From Candidatus Enterovibrio altilux (GTDB lineage Bacteria > Pseudomonadota > Gammaproteobacteria > Enterobacterales > Vibrionaceae): DNA of 64,000 bases. The first letter of the stretch is position 1. Every line of letters begins with the position of its first letter. A model generated the notes under the pieces. The model was not told where the DNA came from. It ran no database searches and saw only the letters and a program-made list of their open reading frames with translations. This document shows, piece after piece, positions 8,623 through 60,647 of this stretch. The DNA is taken from NCBI RefSeq assembly GCF_002381345.1, contig NZ_CP020663.1:186001-250000 (forward strand), read 5' to 3'. The position numbers and the translations under genes are program-made.

Positions 8623-9744
8623 GATTTTATTTCCTTATTTGAGTTTAGACAGCAAATTTCAGCATAATTAACTATTAGATGATTACTTTCATTCTAGGCA
8701 TACCTAATTCTGTCAGCTTATTTAGCACTTTTATCATGGTGTCAGTTCCGCCAACCTGAGCATTGTAATCCATTAGGCTCAATATCCCCTTCCGAGCAGT
8801 TTTTTGATTTAAAAAAACAGCCTTCTCTGATAGAGAACGTTTATAGTCACCATACTTAGTTTTCCAGTGCTGAACGAATAATTTTATTTTCCAGAAGTTG
8901 ATTTTTTCTGGATAGCATGATTGGAACCGCTCGTTTAATATAAACGGTTTAGTAACATTATCTGGTGTCGTACAAACACCATCGCCTGATATTTCGTTGA
9001 TTCTTCAGTGGGCCTGTTTGAGCACATTATGCAACACTTAACCGTCAGTTATATTTAATACATTTAGCTCAACAGCAATGATTTCATACGTATTTATATC
9101 TACCTCTACATATAATTTACGCCAAACTTGCCGTTCCCCAGCAGTGCCATGCTTTGTTTACTTCCCATTTACAATCACCGTAAATGTTGAACTCCATAGA
9201 ATCAATGGCTAAGTGCTGAATGATTCCTTTCGTCTCGTCTCGAATGCAGCGTTAACCGTTTTGGCTTGTTCGCTAATGCATAAATAGTGATGGCATCATA
9301 AAGGGAGTTGAGCAAGTTTAAAAACAGAATTAATGAATCTTTGCAGACCTTTCCATGACATTGGATATATGCGTTTAACCATGAGACCGTCGTAACGGCT
9401 AAGTCACTAAATAAATAAAATCTCCCATGATTACCCTACTTAGTTTAATTTTACAGAGAAATGGCTTCTTCATCAATCCAGAATGTGGGTTAATCACGAT
9501 TGATTAAAGCTTGATTATACTGTTTCAAGTTAGTTGTTTTGTAGCGGGGATTATTCATAAACCTAGATTTTTAAGCACACCTAACTGTTGAGAGTGTTGC
9601 TTAAAAATTTAGTTCCTTTATTTGGGGAATAAAGTCGGTTACCATACACGTTCCACAGCAGAGACAGCAATAGTTTGAGTCAAAAAACGGCTGGGAGGGA
9701 TATTGAATCTAAGGAATCACACAACTCAGATTAGGTAACAAAGC
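8623..9744 (-). mobile_element. IS903-like composite relic 2 (minus orientation)
   Basis: Transposase sense is on the minus strand. The right end starts at ~8623 (GATTTTATTTCC for GGCTTTGTTTCC), the body follows, and the left end is at ~9632. It is joined directly to an inverted extra right-end segment at 9636-9744 that begins GGTTACCATACACG. That segment has lost about 120 bp by a deletion between the similar strings CTCAGATTAG and CTCGAATTAG. Dead: many stops. Confidence 0.87.
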
Positions 9745-10565: not shown

Positions 10566-11325
10566 GGCTCTTTTTCCTCACTCAAACTCAGATAGCAAAT
10601 CCCAACATAATTCACTACTAGACAATCGCTTTTATTGTAGGCATACGTAGTTCTATCAGCTTCTTTAAGACTTTTATTATAACATAAATTTCGCTGAACT
10701 ATGTGATCCCTTAAGCTCAATGTCCCTACCAGTAATTTTTTATTCGAACCATTTCTAACTCTATTAGGCAACGTTTATGGTAACCGGTTTTATCCCCTAA
10801 ATCAGGAGACTAAATTTTTAATCAACACTCAAAATAATTAGTCTAACTTAAATATTCAAGTCTACAAATAAGCTTAGCTACAAAACGATTAACTGTAAGC
10901 ACTATAATTAAATTTGAATCAATTATGGCTCACTAACAGTCTACATTGATGAAGAAACCATTCAGCCATGAAATCAAACTAAGTAGGCAATCATAGAAAA
11001 CTTCGTTTATTTAACAACTTAGTCATTACGACAGTTTTCATAGTTAAAGGAGTATTTTCAATGCTGTCAAGAGCTTAAAAAAATTTATTAATTTTTTTAA
11101 GCTTACTTAACTGCTTTTGGTGTGCCATACATTATTCATGTGTTAGCAGTGAACCCAAGCGGTTTCGAGACGAGTACTAAAAGACCCGTCCATCACTTAA
11201 CTATTAACGCTATAGCATTAAACTTTACGGTGAAGAAAAATGGAAAGTAATAAAGCCTCCCACTCATGAAAAACATCAAGTCAAATGCAAGTTACATTTA
11301 ACAATCAGTTGCCAGATATTATGCG
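10566..11325 (+). mobile_element. IS903-like composite relic 4 (plus, truncated)
   Basis: Inverted extra right end at 10566-~10781, junction at TAACCGG|TTTTATCCCC (~10782), then the left end and plus-sense body. After GTTACATTTA near 11300 it jumps to the later segment CAGTTGCCAG, skipping about 250 bp. Both sides of the gap carry ATTTAGCGGT-like sequence in other copies, so this looks like a deletion at a short direct repeat. It stops near 11325, about 50 bp past the end of rnt. Confidence 0.85.
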
Positions 11326-14434: not shown

Positions 14435-15668
14435 GACTTTGTTTCCTAATTTGAATGCAAATAGCCAATCTCAGCATGATTTACTATTAAACAATTGCTT
14501 TCATTTTAAACATGCCTAACCCAGTCGACTTGTTCAACTTTTTTATCATGACGTCGATTTTGCTGATTTAAGTTGTGTGACCCCATAGACTCTATGTCCC
14601 CTCACAGTAATTTTTTAATTCGAACCATTGTTGCCTCTGCTAGGGAACAGCTATGATACTAGCTGTATTTCCTAAATAAGAAAGCTAACTTTTCAATTAA
14701 TACTTTAAACAACAGGTTAACTTAAATATTAAGATCTATAATCAAGCTTTAATCAATCGTGACTCATTAATATCCTGGATTGATGAAGAAACTATTCAGC
14801 TATGGAATCAAACTAAGCAGGGTAATCATGGAAGACTTCGTTGATTTATCAACTTAACCATTACGACGGTTTTCATGGTTAAATGCGTATTTTCAATATT
14901 ATTGAGAGGTTAGCCAGGATTTATTAATTCTAATTTAAACTTACTCAACTGCTGTTGTCATGCCCTTACTATTCATGCATTAGCAAACGAGTCAAAATAA
15001 TTAATGTCACGTTCAAAACGAGGAATGACGCAACTATCCTGCACTTAAACATTTATTCTACGAGGCTCCAAGTCTACGATGAAGGCGAATGGCAAGTAAA
15101 AAATCATGGCACTGGTGGGAAACGGAGAGTCTGGCATAAATTACATTCAGCGGTAGAGATAAATACGCATGAAATCGTGGTTGCTAAATTAAGCGCATTA
15201 AATATGACTGACAGTGCAGTGCTATCTAACTTGCTCCAACAGATTCGCTTAAAAATAACTGAAATGTCCGGTGGTGGTCCTTGCGACACCAAATAATATT
15301 ACGAATCGTTCGGATTGAACAAATGGTTCCACTCATCCTACCAAGAAAAAGGAAAAATTTTTAAAGCGAGATTATCCGAGTAATTTAACAGTTAGTTACC
15401 AAACGTTATACAGTTCAAATAAGCATTGAAAAAGAAAGTACAATAACTACAAATATTCTCTACCAGATATGGCAATGTTTTTAATTAAAAAAACTACTGA
15501 GAGTAACATTGAGCTTAAGACATCGCCATGATCAGATTAGTGGAACCGTCTCCATGATAAAATATTAAATAAGCTGACAGAGTTAAATATGTTTAACACG
15601 AAAGCTATTGTCTAATCGTAAATCATGTTGAAATTTACTCTCTGAACTCAAATTAATGAATAAAATCT
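14435..15668 (+). mobile_element. IS903-like composite relic 6 (plus)
   Basis: Near-complete composite. It has an inverted extra right end at 14435-~14662, a junction ACTAGCTGTATTTCC (~14664), then the left end, body and right end to ~15668. It holds the longest surviving transposase piece (14955-15296), which covers the first catalytic Asp region, VWHKLHSAVEINTH, and the damaged second block SGGGPCDTK, where family copies read GDGAYDTR. The rest is broken. Confidence 0.87.
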
Positions 15669-16885: not shown

Positions 16886-18010
16886 GGCTTTGTGTCTTCA
16901 TTCAAGTTCAGATAGCAAATCTAAACATGAATAACTATTAAACAATTGCTTTCGTATTAGGCATACCTAGTCCTATCGGCGAATGTAACGCTTTTATTAT
17001 GCCTTAGGTTTCTCTAATATAAGCGTGGTTATTCCTTAGGTTGACTGTCCTTCCTAAAAATTTCTAACTCGAAACATTGTCGCCTCTAACAAGGAACGCT
17101 TATGGTAATTACACCTCGTTTTCCCAATGCTAATTGGAACCGTATAACTTCTGGCAACTGACAACTAAATTACACGAATAACCTCGTCCCCAAAAGTTAC
17201 TTTTTTTCTTGATGGGATGAATGAAACCGCTCGTTTAATACGAACGGTTTCGTAATATTTGCTGACGTCGCAAGTACCATCGTCTGTCACATTTGATGCA
17301 CTTCACTCGGTAGCAATAATTTTATACGTATTTATGTTTACTACTAAATGTAACTGGTACCAGACTAACCGTTTACCATCAGGGCAATACTTTTTACTTG
17401 CCATTAGCCTTCACCTTAGACTTTGGCCCCGTAGAACCAACGGCTAAGTGCAGGATGATGCCAGGAGTCTTCGTCTTGAATGTGACGTTAACCATTTTAG
17501 CTCGCTTGCTAATGCATGAATAGTGAGGGCATGACAACGGCAATTGAGTAAGCTTAAAAACAGAATTAATGAATCCTTGCAGACCTCTCAATGATACTTA
17601 AAGTACGCATTTAACCATGAGGGCCGTAGTAATGGCTAAGTTGCGCAATAAACGAGATCTCCCATGATTATTCTGCTTAGCTTAATTCCATGACTACGTA
17701 GCCACTGCATCAACCCAGAATATTCGTGAACCTAATTGTTTAGATTGTTAATTGAAAATTTAGTGTCTTATTTAGGAATCAAGCTGGTTACCATAAACAT
17801 TCCATAGCAGAGACAGCAATGGCTCTAGTCAAAAACTACTGAGAGGGACATTGAGCTTAAAAAATCACAATGCTCAGATTAGTGAAATTTACGCCAGGGT
17901 AAAAGCGTTAAAGAAGCTGATAAAATTAAGTATACTTAAAATACAAGCAATCATCTAATAGTTAATAATGTTAGGATTTACTATCTAAACTCGAATTAGG
18001 TAATAAAACT
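16886..18010 (-). mobile_element. IS903-like composite relic 8 (minus)
   Basis: Right end GGCTTTGTGTC at 16886, minus-sense body, left end at ~17785 fused to GGTTACCATAAACATTCC (inverted extra right end) running to 18010. About 80 bp are deleted near 17270. The flanking 9-mers AGTACAATA (16877-16885) and GCTACAATG (18011-18019) share 6 of 9 bases and look like a decayed target duplication. Confidence 0.88.
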
Positions 18011-26278: not shown

Positions 26279-27550
26279 GGCTTTATCTTCTGATTCGAGT
26301 TCAGATAGCACATCCTAATATAATTAACTACTAGACGCTCACTTTCGTTTTTAGCATATCTAACTCTGTCAGCTTATTTAATACTTTTATTATGGCATCA
26401 GTTTCGCTAATCTAGGCATTATGATTTCTTAGGCTCGATGTTCCTCCAAGAGATTTTTTGACTCACAACATCACTGTCTTTGCTATAGAACGTTTACGGT
26501 AATCGACTGTATTTTCTAAATAAGGGAACTAAATTTTTTATCAACACTCTAAACAGTTAGGCTCACTTAAATATTCAGACCTATGAATAATCTTCGCTAC
26601 AAAAAACTAACTGGCAGCAGTATAATTAAGCTTTAATTAATCGTCGTTCACTAATATTTAAATTGATGAAGAAGCTATTTAACCATGGAATTAAACTAAG
26701 CAGGGTAATTATAAAAAACCTCGTTTATTTAGCGACTTAGACGTTACGATGGTCCTCATGGTTAAATGCGTATTTTCAATATCATTGAGGGGTCTGCAAG
26801 GATTCATTAATACTGTTTCCAAACTTGCTCAACTATCATTGTCATGCTCTCACTATTCATGCATTAGCAAACGAATCAAAACGGTTAACGTCAAGTTCAA
26901 GGCGAAGACTAAAGGAAGCATACAGCACTTAGCCATTGATTCTACGGGGCTCAACGTTTACAGTGAAGGAGAATAGAAAGCAAAAAAGCATGGTACTGAT
27001 GGGAAACGGCAAGTCTGGCGCAAGTTGCATTTAGTGATAGATATAAATACGCATAAAATCATTGCTGCTAAGTTAAGTGCATCAAATGTGACTGACGGCG
27101 AAGTACTCCCTAACTTACTCAAATAAATTCACGGAAAAATCAATGAAATATCAGCCGATGGTGCTTACGAGACCAGACAATATTACAAAACCTTTCGTAT
27201 TAAACGAGCGGTTCCACTCATATTACCAAAAAAAGCAATTTTTTTAGAAGCGAAATCGTTTGCATAATTTAGCGATTAGTGACCAGAAGTTATATGGCTC
27301 CAATCAGCATTGAAAAACGAGATATGGCTACCATAAACGTTCCCTATCAGAAACGGCAATATTTTGAATCAAAAATTACTGTGAGGGACATTGAGCCTAA
27401 GAGATTATAATGCTCAAATTAACGAGACTTACGGCATGATAAAAGCATCAAAGAAGCTAACCGAGCTAGGTATGCCTAAAACAAAAACGATTGTTTAATC
27501 ATTAATCATGTTGAGATTTACTATTTAAGTTTAAATTAAGAAACAGAACC
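26279..27550 (+). mobile_element. IS903-like composite relic 13 (plus, full span)
   Basis: One of the most complete composites, 1272 bp. Inverted extra right end at 26279-~26503, junction CGACTGTATTTTCTAAATAAG, plus-sense body, right end AAACAGAACC at 27550. The transposase frame is interrupted by stops and indels. It removed most of ybeZ or marks the point where ybeZ was cut. Confidence 0.88.
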
Positions 27551-30753: not shown

Positions 30754-31608
30754 GTTATGTTCCCTATCTTAGTTCAGATAGCAAATTTCAACATGACAAA
30801 TTATTATACGGTTATTTTTGTTTTAAGCATACTTAGCCCTATCAGCTTATCTAGCACTTTTATTATTGCGTAAATTTCGCCAATCTGGACATTGTGATCT
30901 CTTAGACTTCATGTTCCTCCGAATAGTTTTTGATTCGAAACATTGATGTATCTAATAGTGAATGCTGATAGTAACCATGCCTTTGTTTCCTAAATCAAGA
31001 AACTACATTATCAATCTACGCTTTAAACAGCTAGGTTCACTTAAATATTCAAGTCTATGGATAAGCTTAGCTACAAAATAATCAACTGAAAAAGTATAAT
31101 CAAGCTTTAATTAATCGGGAACTCACTAACATTCTAGGTTGATGAAGAAGTCATTTAGCTATGAAATGAAACTAAGCCGTTTTAATGTATAAATACCCTT
31201 CACGAAAATAAACACATTATTGTAAACTCTATACGTAACGTATTGAGAGAAAGAATTGCACCCTTCGTATTCGCTTGAAACAATTTACTAGGCAAATGAT
31301 CAGATCTTAAAATGAAAGAAAATGTACGATAAAATAATTAGTACATTCATTGAATGAAGTATTATCTTTGAATTACAATTAATCTATTGAATACAGAGCA
31401 GACAAACAAGCTATAGTTACTATAAATATTTCCTATCAAAAACGGTAAACTTTTGAGTAAAAAAGCTGCTCGGAGGAACACTTAACTAAATAATTATCAT
31501 AATCAAATTAAAAATTTTTAGGCAGGTTTGTCTAAAACGAAGCTAGCATCTGTAGTTGCTCATGTTTACACTTGATATCTGAATTTGAGTTAGAAACAAA
31601 GCCTCCCT
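30754..31608 (+). mobile_element. IS903-like composite relic 14 with a foreign middle
   Basis: Inverted extra right end at 30754-~30977, left end CCTTTGTTTCCTAAATC at ~30980, early body to ~31185, then about 220 bp (31186-31405) with no resemblance to other copies, then the right-end segment at ~31406-31608 (GAGTTAGAAACAAAGCC). Either the transposase middle was replaced, or two relics enclose a strip of old chromosome. Confidence 0.8.
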
Positions 31609-37066: not shown

Positions 37067-37075
37067 TGTATAATA
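37067..37075. repeat. Left 9-bp target-site duplication of composite relic 15
   Basis: TGTATAATA immediately left of the IS right end. It matches TGTATAATG at 38330-38338 in eight of nine positions. Nine base pairs is the expected length for the IS903 group. Confidence 0.8.
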
Positions 37076-38329
37076 AGCTTTATTTCTTAATTCATGCTTA
37101 GATAGCAAATCTTTTCATGATTCACTATTAAATAATCGCTTCGTTGTGAACACACCTAATCCTGTCAGCTTATTTAACGCTTTTACCATAACGTTAGTTT
37201 CACAAATCTAAGATAGTGTAATCCCTGCAACTCAATATCCCTACAGAAAATTTTTTAATTCAAAATATTGCCGTTTTTGATAAGGAATACTTATGGTAAT
37301 CAAATCTCGTTTTCCAATGCTGATTGGAATGTATAATTTCTGGTAACTGATCACTAAATTTCGCGAATAACCTCGTTTTCAAAAAATTGCTCCCTTTCTT
37401 AGTGGTATGAATGGAACCGCTCGTTTAATATGAACGATATCATAAGCACCATCGGCTGACATTTCATTAATTTTTAAACGGGCTTCTTTCAATAAGTTAA
37501 GTAGCACTGCACCGTCAGTCACATTTGATGCACTTAATTAAGCACCAATGATTTAATGCATATTTATATCTACCGTTAAATCTAACTTACGTCAGACTCC
37601 CCGTTTTCCATCAGTTCCATGCTTCTTTACTTTCCATTATTCTTCACCGTAAACTGTGATCCCCGTAGAATCAATAGCTAAGTGCTATATTCTTCCTTTA
37701 TTCTGCATCTTAAACGTAATGTTAACCGTTTTGGCTTGCTTGCTAATGCATAAATAGTGAGGGTATGACAATGGCGGTTGAACAAGTTTGAAAACAAAGT
37801 TAATTAATTCTTGCAGACCTCTAAATTGCATTGAAAATACGCATTTAACCATGAAGGCCGCAGTAATGACTAAGTCGTTAAATAAACGTGTTATTCCACA
37901 ATTACCCTGCTGAGTTTAATTCCATAGCTAAATAATTCCTGTATCCATAAAAAATAATAGTTAGCAACGATGGATTAAAGCTTACTAATACTGCTTCCAG
38001 TTAGTTGTTTTGTAGCAAAGATTGTTCATACACTCGCATATTTAAGTGAACCTAACTGTTTAAAGTATTTAAAAATTTAGTTCTCTTATTTAAAAAATAA
38101 AGTCGGTTATCATAAACGTTACCTAAAAGGGATAGCAATGATTCGAATCAAAAAACTACTGGGAGAGACATTGCGCCTAAGGGCTTACGATGCCCAGGCT
38201 AGTGAAAGCTAGCAATGATAAAAGCGTTAAATAAGCTGGCTGGATTAGGCACACCTAACACGAAAGTGATTTCCTAATAATGAATCATGTGAAGATTTGC
38301 TATCTGAACTCGAATTAGGAAACAAAGAC
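37076..38329 (-). mobile_element. IS903-like composite relic 15 with target duplication
   Basis: Right end AGCTTTATTTCTTAATTC at 37076, minus-sense body, left end near 38103 fused to GGTTATCATAAACG, and inverted extra right end to GGAAACAAAGAC at 38329. The whole 1254-bp composite, not just the inner IS, lies between the two 9-bp repeats. The transposase frame is broken in many places. Confidence 0.9.
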
Positions 38330-38338
38330 TGTATAATG
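38330..38338. repeat. Right 9-bp target-site duplication, containing a -10-like TATAAT
   Basis: TGTATAATG directly after the composite. The TATAAT at 38332-38337 is a consensus -10 hexamer 31 bp before the nadA ATG. I see no good -35 within the adjoining IS end. Confidence 0.75.
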
Positions 38339-39531: not shown

Positions 39532-40809
39532 GGATTTGTTTCCCAATTTAAGTTCAAATAGCAAGCCCAAACATAATAGGTTATTGGATAATTACTTTCA
39601 TTTCAGGCATACTTAACCCTGTTAGCTTATTTAACGCTTTTACCATAGCGTAGCTTTCACCCATCTGAGCTTTGTCAGCCCTTAGGCTCAATGTTCATCC
39701 AATTAACTTTTTGATTCAAAACATTGCCGCCTCTGGTAGGAAATGTTCATGCATGGGAATCATACCTTGCTTTTCAATGCTTATTTAAACCGTATAACTT
39801 CTGGTAACTGATCGCTAAATTACGCGAATAACTTCGTTCCCACAAAGTTGTTCCTTTTCTTGGGGGATAAGTGGAACCACTCGTTTAATACGAACAGTTT
39901 CATAACATCGTCTGGATTATAAGCACCATTGACTTATATTTTATTGATTTTTTGATTAACCTGTTTGAACAAGTTAGGTAGCACTTGGCCACCAGTCATA
40001 TTTAACGCACTGAACGCAGCAGCAATGATTTCATGCGTCTTTATATTTACCTTGAAATGTAACTTTGGCTAAACTAACCATTTCCATCAGTGTCATGCTA
40101 TATTACTTACTATTCGCTCTCACCGTAGATTTTTAACTCCGTAGCATAGATGGCTAGGGGCAAGATTATTCTTTTAGCCTTCATCTTGAATGTGACGTTA
40201 ACCATTGTAGCTCGTTTGCTAATGTCTGACTAGTGAGGGCATGGCACAATGGCAGTTGAGCAAGTTTGAAACAAAACTAATTAATCCTTGCAGGTCTCTC
40301 AATGGCATTGAAAACACGCATTTAACCATGAGCGCCATCGTAATAGCTAAGTTACTAAATAAAGGAGGTCTCCCATGATCACACGACTTAGTTTGATTCC
40401 ATAGCTAAATATTTTTTTCACCAATCCAGAATGTTAGCGAGCCACTATTGATTAAAGCTTGATTATACTGCTTCCTGTTAGTTATTTTGCAGCGAAGCGT
40501 GTTCATAGGCCTGAATATTTAAGTGAGCCTAGCTATTTATCGTGTTGATTGACAATTCAGTTCCCTAATTGAGTAACTCAAGACGGTTACCACCAACGTT
40601 TCTTAGCAAAAACAGCAATGGTGCGAGTTAAAAAACACTTGAAGGAGCATGGAACTTAAGAGCTTATAATGCTCAGATTAGCGAAAGCTGAGCCATAATA
40701 AAAGCATTAAATAAGCGAACTGGGTTAGATATACCTAAAATGAAAATAATTGTTTCATGGTGAATCATCTTGAAATTTACTATCTGAACGTATATTAGGA
40801 AATAAAATT
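39532..40809 (-). mobile_element. IS903-like composite relic 16 (minus, full span)
   Basis: Right end GGATTTGTTTCCC at 39532, minus-sense body, left end at ~40583 (GAGTAACTCAAGAC) joined to GGTTACCACC, and inverted extra right end to GGAAATAAAATT at 40809. The flanking 9-mers (TTGTGAATA and CTTGACATA) match only partly and are not a convincing target duplication. Confidence 0.87.
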
Positions 40810-43983: not shown

Positions 43984-44427
43984 TTGCTTTACTTCTTAAT
44001 TTGAGTTCAGATAAGATATTCTAAAATAATGGACTATGAGCTTTGTTTTAAAATAGATAACTAACTGATTCATCTACGCTTTAAACAACTAACTGGAAAC
44101 AGTATAATCAAATTTTAATCAATAGTAGCTAACTAATATTCTAGATTAATAAAGAAACCATCCAGCTATGGGATCAAACTAAGCGGGGCAATAGCGAGAG
44201 GCTTCGTTTATTTAACCACTTAACAATTACGACAGCTCTCATAGTTAAACGCGTATTTTCAATGCTATTGAGCAGTCTGTAAAAATTCATTAGTTCTGTT
44301 TCAAAACTCATACATTTGCAAGCATGAACTAGCATGGTTAATTTAGCCATTGATACTATAGGACTCAAAGTCTGCAGTAACATCGAATGGCAAGTAAAAA
44401 AAGCATGACACTGATAGTAAACGGCTA
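43984..44427 (+). mobile_element. IS903-like relic 18 (plus, truncated composite)
   Basis: A short remnant of the extra inverted right end (GCTTTACTTCTTAATTTGAGTTCAG at 43987, 20 bp of it clear) joins the left end at ~44040 (GCTTTGTTTTAAAATAG). The plus-sense body continues to mid-transposase and stops at ~44427, against the 3' end of the RTX pseudogene. Confidence 0.8.
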
Positions 44428-46418: not shown

Positions 46419-46764
46419 AGCTTTGTTTCTTAATTCCAGTTCATATAGCAAATTTCAACATGAATCACTATTAAACACTCGCTTTCTCTTTAAGCATCCC
46501 CCTAACCCGGTCAAGTTATTTAATTTTTTATCATGGCGCAGATTGCTAATCTGAATTGCGTGATGCCTTAGACTCAATATTCCTTTCAAAAATTTTTAAT
46601 TTAAGCCATTTCTATATCTGCTAGGTAACGTTTATGATGACCAGCTTTATTTTCTAAATAAGGGAACAACATCTTCAATCAGCACTCTAAACTGTTAGGC
46701 TCACTAACCTTCTGTATTAATGAAGAAACTATTCCACTATGGAATCAAATTAGGCAACAAAGCT
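46419..46764 (+). mobile_element. IS903-like relic 19, 346-bp internally deleted composite
   Basis: Inverted extra right end at 46419-~46640, left end GCTTTATTTTCTAAATAAGGG, ~100 bp of early body, then a fusion GGAATCAAATTAGG to the right end GGCAACAAAGCT at 46764. The fusion joins two similar words (GGAATCAAACTAAG and GAACTCGAATTAGG). Both termini are kept, so it has the form of a non-autonomous miniature element. Confidence 0.85.
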
Positions 46765-59363: not shown

Positions 59364-60647
59364 TGCTTTGTTTCCTAATGCGAGTTCAGATAGCAAATCA
59401 CAGCATGATGAACTATTAGACCATCGCTTTCGTTTTAAGCATACCTAGTCTTATCAACTTATTTAAGACTTTTATCATGGCGTAAATCTCGCTAATATGA
59501 GCATTATGATCTTTTAAGTTCAATGTCCCTCCAAGTAACGTTTTGACACGAAACCTTGCCGTCTTTAATAGAGAATATTTATGGTAATCATACTTTATTT
59601 TTCAATGCTCATTGGAACCGTATAATTTCTGGCAACTGACCGTTAAATGACGCGGATAACCTCGTCCCCAAAAAGTGGCTCCTTTTATTGGTGGTATTAG
59701 TGGAACCACTCGTTTAATACGAACGGTTCCGTCACATTGTCTGGTTTCGTAAGCACCGTCGGCTGATATTTTATTAATTTTTCGGCAGGTCTGTTTAAGC
59801 AAGCTAAGTAGCACTTCACCATCAGTCACATTTAGATGCACTTAACTCAGTAGCAATAATTTCATGCGTATTCATATCTACCACTAAATGTAATTTGTGG
59901 TAGATTCGCCATTTTCCATCAATACTATATTTTTTCACTTTCCATTCTTCTTCACCGTAAACGTTGAGCCCCGTAAAATGAATGGCTAAGTGCTGTATGC
60001 TTCCTTTATTCTTCTAATCTTCGTCTTGAACGTGACGTTAATCATTTTGGCTCGCTTGCTAATACATGAATAGTGAGGACATAATAATGGCAGTGGAACA
60101 AGTTTAAAAACAGGATTAATTAATCCTTGCAGACCTCTAAATCACATTGAAAATGCATATTTAACTATGAGCACAGTTGTAATCGTTAAGTCACGAAATA
60201 ATCGAAATTTTTCATGATTATCCTGCTTAATTTGATTCCATAACTGAATAGCTTTTCATCAATCCAAAATGTAAGTAAGCCACGATTGATTAAAGCTTGA
60301 TTATACTACTTCCAATTAGTTGTTTTGTAACGAAGATTGTTCATAAACCCGAATATTTAAGTGAGCCTAACTGCTTGGTGTATTGATTAAAAATTTAGTT
60401 TCCTTATTTAGGAAATAAAGCCGGTTACCATAAACATTCCATAGCAGAGACAGCAATGGTTCGAATCAAAAAACCACTGATAGGAACATTGAGTCTAAAG
60501 AAGCACACAACTCAGATTAGCAAAACCGACGCCATGATAAAAGTGTTACCTAAGCTGACAGGGCTAGGTATGCCTAACATGAAAGCGATTATTCAATTAT
60601 TAGTCATGTTGAAATTGGTTACCTGAACTCGATTAAGAAATAAGGCC
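59364..60647 (-). mobile_element. IS903-like composite relic 24 (minus, full span)
   Basis: The clearest composite, 1284 bp. Right end TGCTTTGTTTCCTAATG at 59364 and minus-sense body. The left end TTTAGGAAATAAAGCC at 60422 is fused without a gap to GGTTACCATAAACATTCC, and the inverted extra right end runs to AGAAATAAGGCC at 60647. The two ~226-bp ends (59364-59592 and 60422-60647) are inverted copies of each other. Flanking 9-mers do not match. Confidence 0.9.

Follow-up and report, generated by a model that had tools for sequence, protein, structure and literature searches.

Structure of the composite element and its copies

The window analyzed in the present study, a stretch of 64,000 nucleotides at positions 186001-250000 of contig C2, contains 49 matching fragments of a single insertion sequence (IS) profile, and the copy at 59364-60647 was described in the first-pass annotation as an IS903-like element with a reversed right-end segment placed directly at its left end. 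This description was confirmed; the relic lies on the minus strand. The reversed segment (RE') begins GGTTACC directly against the left end (LE) of this copy, and the two right-end segments of the copy match at 71.6% over 236 bp. LE and right ends (RE) were located with a profile that represented only the simple IS and thus presupposed no composite structure; it detected 16 LE ends in the window, 10 of which carried the junction (Table 1). Among the 11 junctions listed previously, 10 were recovered, each within 4 bp, whereas that at 44040 was not and corresponds by BLAST to a 56-bp right-end tip.

Table 1. Composite elements and associated segments in the window.
Feature	Position	Strand	Details
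Composite of the first-pass annotation	59364..60647	-	RE' 60423-60647, LE at 60422, IS body, RE at 59364
RE' segment	60423..60647	+	IS profile 825-1049; inverted relative to the adjoining IS
Composite between near-identical 9-bp repeats	37076..38329	-	Repeats 37067-37075 and 38330-38338; upstream of nadA; LE 38104
Composite, near full length	26279..27550	+	LE 26505
Composite, near full length	39532..40809	-	LE 40584
Composite, near full length	14435..15667	+	LE 14661
Composite with internal deletions	16886..18010	-	LE 17785
Composite, RE' partly visible	8623..9735	-	RE' visible for 99 profile positions only (826-924); LE 9636
Composite ending at IS position 533	10566..11302	+	LE 10786
Junction copy	30759..31179	+	LE of ordinary haplotype; fragment mostly RE-type; LE 30979
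Separate RE piece	31401-31602		Beside the 30979 junction copy
Composite remnant	46420..46756	+	IS ends at position 200; LE 46643

An alignment of 20 full copies gave a composite consensus of 1,277 bp, in which, in the sense of the transposase, the 226-bp RE' segment is followed by a complete 1,051-bp IS running from LE to RE. RE' corresponds to IS positions 826-1051 in inverted orientation and adjoins LE base 1, without a gap, at its inner edge; the proposal of two bounding right ends is supported. The consensus transposase contains the Pfam domains DDE_Tnp_1_5 and DDE_Tnp_1, and its full-length Vibrio relatives, with up to 86% identity (Vibrio ouci), place it in the IS903 group of the IS5 family, which is represented in Vibrio and Shewanella. 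Short terminal inverted repeats starting with GGCTTTGTT, the motif of IS903, are present in the LE and RE consensus of simple copies and in the relatives, and the 9-bp target duplications of the group were found in simple copies (p 0.001) and, with 8 or 9 of 9 matching bases, in 12 of 46 relatives; in composites, they occur as single cases only. The composite differs from members of this group in that it is bounded by RE' and RE, with LE buried, rather than by one left and one right end, and it differs from MITEs and other derivatives that have no transposase gene in that its IS body is whole in the full form. Regarding the junction itself, its predicted fold revealed no structure (z 0.85). 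A junction-made promoter was rejected because, by simple hexamer scoring, the best site of the composite did not exceed that of the simple consensus, as was an upstream reading frame, which is closed at most four codons before the ATG in both.

Host genome and abundance of the composite

The genome that contains the composite is divided into four contigs with a total of 2,143,356 bp, of which the longest accounts for 1,604,691 bp. The luminous symbiont of the deep-sea anglerfish Cryptopsaras couesii has been described as Candidatus Enterovibrio luxaltus CC26 (PMC6020299), and the available text of that report assigns it 672 IS5-family transposase genes that resulted from one expansion, all of which were termed pseudogenes that lack inverted repeats or are truncated. 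The present study concerns that very genome and its IS copies, for which the text mentions no composite structure; the composite offers a structural reading of the published lack of typical inverted repeats in CC26 transposons (PMC6020299).

Two samples were used: a first of 436,400 bp (C2, 1-336400, and C3, 1-100000) and a larger one of 836,400 bp (39% of the genome), for which 20 stretches of C1 were added. The duplication and flank analyses were based on ends with a tip match of at least 8 that did not touch unread sequence, the right-end comparison on segments long enough for alignment, and identity medians on copies with more than 400 aligned positions. The larger sample contained 569 profile matches spanning 228,353 bp, with 194 LE and 301 RE ends, and IS sequences accounted for ~27% of its 836,400 bp. 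The LE ends were assigned to 83 composites and 94 simple copies, with 17 placed against other IS pieces; in the first sample, 100 LE ends were divided into 42 with the junction, 8 against another IS piece, and 50 with neither, and a slight alteration in the neighbor rule between the samples shifted these C2 and C3 counts to 42, 7, and 51, respectively. The first-pass annotation had named a predominance of simple copies with matching flanking duplications as a refuting observation; simple copies slightly outnumber composites, and clear flanking duplications are rare in both forms.

The position of the junction did not vary between copies: in the first sample, the offset was 0 in 26, +1 in 13, -1 in 2, and +2 in 1, such that all 42 were within 2 bp. 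A 24-bp junction pattern, with up to three mismatches allowed, matched 100 times genome-wide versus no match with the reversed control. Within the sample, 40 of 40 matches fell on composites that had been called separately, and 40 of the 83 composites matched, from which we estimate ~207 composites in the whole genome.

Movement of the composite as a unit

An outward flank pattern with T at positions 3-4, A at 7, and A at 13-14, symmetric about the center of the 9-bp duplication, was common to simple LEs (93), right ends (226), and the outer ends of RE' (71), and it resembles the target pattern of IS903. A target matrix derived from the other right ends scored 0.28 on the 71 RE' flanks, whereas the scores at five more distant positions ranged from -0.19 to -0.60 (p 1.5e-6 to 0.016) and those on the same flanks at offsets of 2, 3, 5, and 8 bases from -0.46 to -0.65.

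The target duplications were examined in the larger sample with a score that tolerates transitions. The 43 composites available showed no significant group excess of 9-bp duplications (p 0.20); at the level of single pairs, two of the 43 scored at least 7 versus none of 1,806 decoy pairs, and four scored at least 6 versus 0.43 expected. An excess was present in the 49 simple copies (p 0.001), six of which scored at least 5 versus 1.08 expected. When exact matches of 2-14 bp were used in the first sample, nothing clear was found for composites and a weak 2-bp signal only for simple copies. Adjacent deletions and recombination have been discussed for the IS903-type group in the available text of PMC11708052, and the loss of most duplications fits these processes.

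The clearest case is the copy at 37076-38329, located 39 bp upstream of the nadA reading frame, which is flanked by TGTATAATA and TGTATAATG, a near-perfect 9-bp duplication. In four of four relatives, including E. escacola, TATAAT is present once in the 160 bp upstream of nadA and is followed by a sequence similar to the right flank in the window; the left flank was too diverged from the relatives for alignment beyond a few bases. Taken together with the target signature of RE', this insertion of the whole unit with a near-perfect duplication indicates that the unit moved on its two right ends. As a separate observation, the near-identical TGTATAAT(A/G) on both sides of the composite (37067-38338) means that TATAAT, possibly a -10 box, now flanks it on either side upstream of nadA.

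Compound transposons of the Tn903, Tn10, and Tn5 type contain inverted IS pairs, the outer ends of which move everything between them. The composite resembles them in having two inverted IS-derived pieces and in that the outer ends of the pair move as one unit, as suggested by the signature and the insertion described above; it differs in that one partner is only 226 bp, the transposase gene resides in the single complete IS, and LE and RE' adjoin without a gap, leaving no passenger DNA. The composite behaves as a compound transposon pared down to a single IS plus one extra end.

Lineage of the composites

The identical breakpoint had been regarded in the first-pass annotation as evidence that the composite arose once and was then amplified. 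The breakpoint alone does not prove a single origin because joins between LE and an inverted IS also occur at other breakpoints, and because three composites have ordinary LE and RE states; the haplotypes of the copies support a founder for most of them. The composite and simple consensuses differ at 26 of 1,051 positions. At LE position 7, A is present in 73 of 83 composites versus 38 of 93 simple copies (p 5e-11), and 67 relatives have G in 58 cases, A in 1, and a gap in 8. Positions 32 and 39 read TA in 58 of 83 composites versus 8 of 94 simple copies, and AT in 4 composites and 70 simple copies. When six LE sites were combined, 69 of the 83 composites were of the composite type, 8 mixed, 3 of the simple type, and 3 not scored, while the 94 simple copies comprised 60 of the simple type, 25 mixed, 8 of the composite type, and 1 not scored.

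RE' also has a consensus of its own. The earlier view that the outer segment is the last ~230 bp of the same IS is correct in that it is an inverted right-end segment, but 16-17 of 226 columns differ from the composite's own RE, which indicates that RE' was either derived from another copy or had already drifted when the burst began. Compared with 54 outgroup rows, 8 of 16 differing columns were derived in RE', 3 were ancestral in RE', and 5 had no clear polarity. At ten RE'-specific columns, the median share of RE' states was 0.7 in 73 RE' segments versus 0.2 in the REs of 50 composites and 48 simple copies, scores that are partly circular because the columns were picked on the same sequences. 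Eight of the 73 RE' segments scored below 0.25, five of which were accompanied by the composite LE base. Most composites belong to a single lineage; they have a founder haplotype with derived LE and RE' states in common and were amplified.

Three composites at the usual breakpoint have a simple-type LE and mostly RE-type fragments (C1:1416567, C1:1494653, and C2:216979, the last being window position 30979). These copies either arose by separate insertion at this site or descend from a stage that preceded the founder's changes, and a second origin or gene conversion is possible for these exceptions and for the low-scoring RE' segments. Together with the 8 of 94 simple copies that carry the composite LE haplotype, they run counter to an account based on a single mobile unit. 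The three exceptions are what would be expected if the IS had inserted repeatedly and independently at a preferred GGTTACC target and the composite had never been mobile, and other sites inside the IS have also been struck repeatedly (three RE ends at 241; LE ends at 225 and 229). However, independent events do not explain the derived LE haplotype of 69 of the 83 composites, the common consensus of the RE' segments, the target signature at their outer flanks, or the insertion of a whole unit with its duplication, and no composite in the sample was accompanied by the left part of the host IS. Repeated insertion is, therefore, largely refuted as the main source, and we regard it as highly improbable as a general explanation, while it is possible for the three exceptions.

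Proposed origin and mechanism

The insertion of one IS into another in inverted orientation, as was originally suggested, is retained as the best account of the origin. In this account, a second copy of the same IS was entered, in inverted orientation, by an IS903-group element at a GGTTACC site located 226 bp from the right end of the recipient copy, which would have left RE and RE' facing outward around one complete IS. The transposase may then have used RE and RE' as the ends of the 1,277-bp unit through a putative RE-RE' synapsis that skips the buried left end, and the unit would have multiplied beside ordinary simple copies until all copies decayed. We hold this sequence of founding by inverted insertion, mobilization on RE and RE', amplification, and decay to be very probable. 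The progenitor nest, an RE lying against an IS (IS-a) that ends near position 834, was not found in the 836,400-bp sample.

An identical final structure may be obtained from one element only, if template switching or snap-back replication copied the right end of an IS onto its own left flank without transposition and the product then became mobile. However, the join lies exactly at LE base 1, as is expected for a join made by a transposase, and IS-into-IS insertions do occur in this genome, with LE ends placed against inverted pieces at 225, 229, 461, 531, and 663. Moreover, among the 16 differing columns there are 3 in which RE', but not the RE of the composite, retains the outgroup state, and this suggests that the two had different parent copies. 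An origin by template switching is unlikely in our assessment.

The composite is real and has been amplified, and the best reading of it is a naturally formed derivative of an IS903-group element with two right ends. According to the available text of PMC3299598, IS2 elements constructed in the laboratory with two right ends are active; they are similar to the composite in that two right ends are used together, but belong to the IS3 family and are artificial, whereas the composite is natural and amplified. No natural IS with this structure was found in a literature search that covered the listed titles and the beginnings of abstracts. A nested IS insertion is usually taken as a dead end; here, it apparently gave rise to a transposing unit in its own right, which reached about the same abundance as the parent IS, and it illustrates how a new arrangement of ends may be derived from an IS in nature by a simple route.

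Evolution of the left end and the transposase gene

On the composite branch, the leader that contains the buried LE accumulated more changes per position (6 of 78) than did the coding region (7 of 918; p 2e-4). This is as expected if the left end went out of use, and the drift of the buried LE may accordingly be read as a record of an end falling into disuse. The more ambitious reading is of an autonomous transposon born in nature by end replacement, in which the left end was abandoned and mutated, including position 7, before the burst, and which, with two right ends and 226-bp repeats, came to make up about two fifths of the genome's IS left ends. We propose this reading tentatively only.

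A close alternative, compatible with the RE-RE' mechanism and different only in the source of the transposase, is that the composite was mobile but non-autonomous and was served in trans by the transposase of simple copies. Simple copies are as numerous as composites (94 versus 83 LE ends), and the composite consensus has two Trp-to-stop codons versus one in the simple consensus, although such stops are the product of strong G-to-A decay on Trp codons. The coding differences between the classes were initially suggestive of constraint on the composite, with 11 of 17 at third positions (p 0.008); however, the excess stems from six sites of unclear polarity and three derived in simple copies, and the seven composite-branch changes of clear polarity comprise two at third, four at second, and one at first positions. 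The excess was therefore rejected as codon-level proof of autonomy once polarity was added. On the other hand, the coding region on the composite branch changed less per site than the leader. Supply in trans has a probability slightly below even.

Since the burst, the copies have decayed without constraint because the substitution rates in composites at the three codon positions are nearly equal (0.161, 0.144, and 0.154). Decay across all sampled IS copies was strongly AT-ward, with C-to-T changes at 21% and G-to-A changes at 22% of sites versus ~5% for the reverse changes. The median identity to their own consensus was slightly higher in composites (0.844, n=71) than in simple copies (0.813, n=62), and the genome offers two distinguishable lineages for the study of an IS burst. 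Internal deletions were considered as MITE-like subfamilies, which was rejected because the seven commonest (7-11 copies each; about 65/142, 239/427, 112/184, 754/810, 712/795, 503/589, and 285/332) are present in composite and simple copies alike. These deletions look recurrent because the printed breakpoints lie at short direct repeats in most cases, and their position at or near direct repeats suggests repeated slippage deletion.

Related elements in other genomes

The 46 complete relatives, obtained from the best 80 of 393 loci and including six identical in sequence to another, were all simple elements of ~1,054 bp, and an inverted IS piece at LE was found in none of them. The junction pattern matched in 2 of 296 family genomes, namely this genome and one with a single three-mismatch match. 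With the reversed control, two further family genomes gave one match each. In 400,000 bp of a genome that fits E. escacola MJ02 (G014), none of 43 LE ends had an inverted neighbor and one had a direct neighbor. Among the 5,000 plasmid records listed for a 500-base composite query, none reached a coverage of at least 80%, and the best coverage among the matches listed was 55%, starting at or just before LE.

Several minor observations were made. G014 has an IS903-type burst of its own (L203-L222), consisting of elements of ~1,050 bp in the simple form with GGCGTTGTTTCC ends, of which 5 of 15 full copies retain at least 7 of 9 duplication bases. Another genome of the same genus (G046, ~5.0 Mb) yielded 53 transposase matches, many of those listed having 75-81% identity and being located at contig ends, which suggests a many-copy relative of the composite's IS in a full-size genome. 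IS position ~225-241 was met repeatedly: pieces that end at 241 adjoin three RE ends, and pieces that start at 225 and 229 adjoin two LE ends. This region may be another hot spot for insertions into the IS. IS-free flanks, such as those to the left of C2:226809 and C3:91972, were mutually alike in 61 pairs (60-84% over 30-250 bp), hinting at another, older intergenic repeat.
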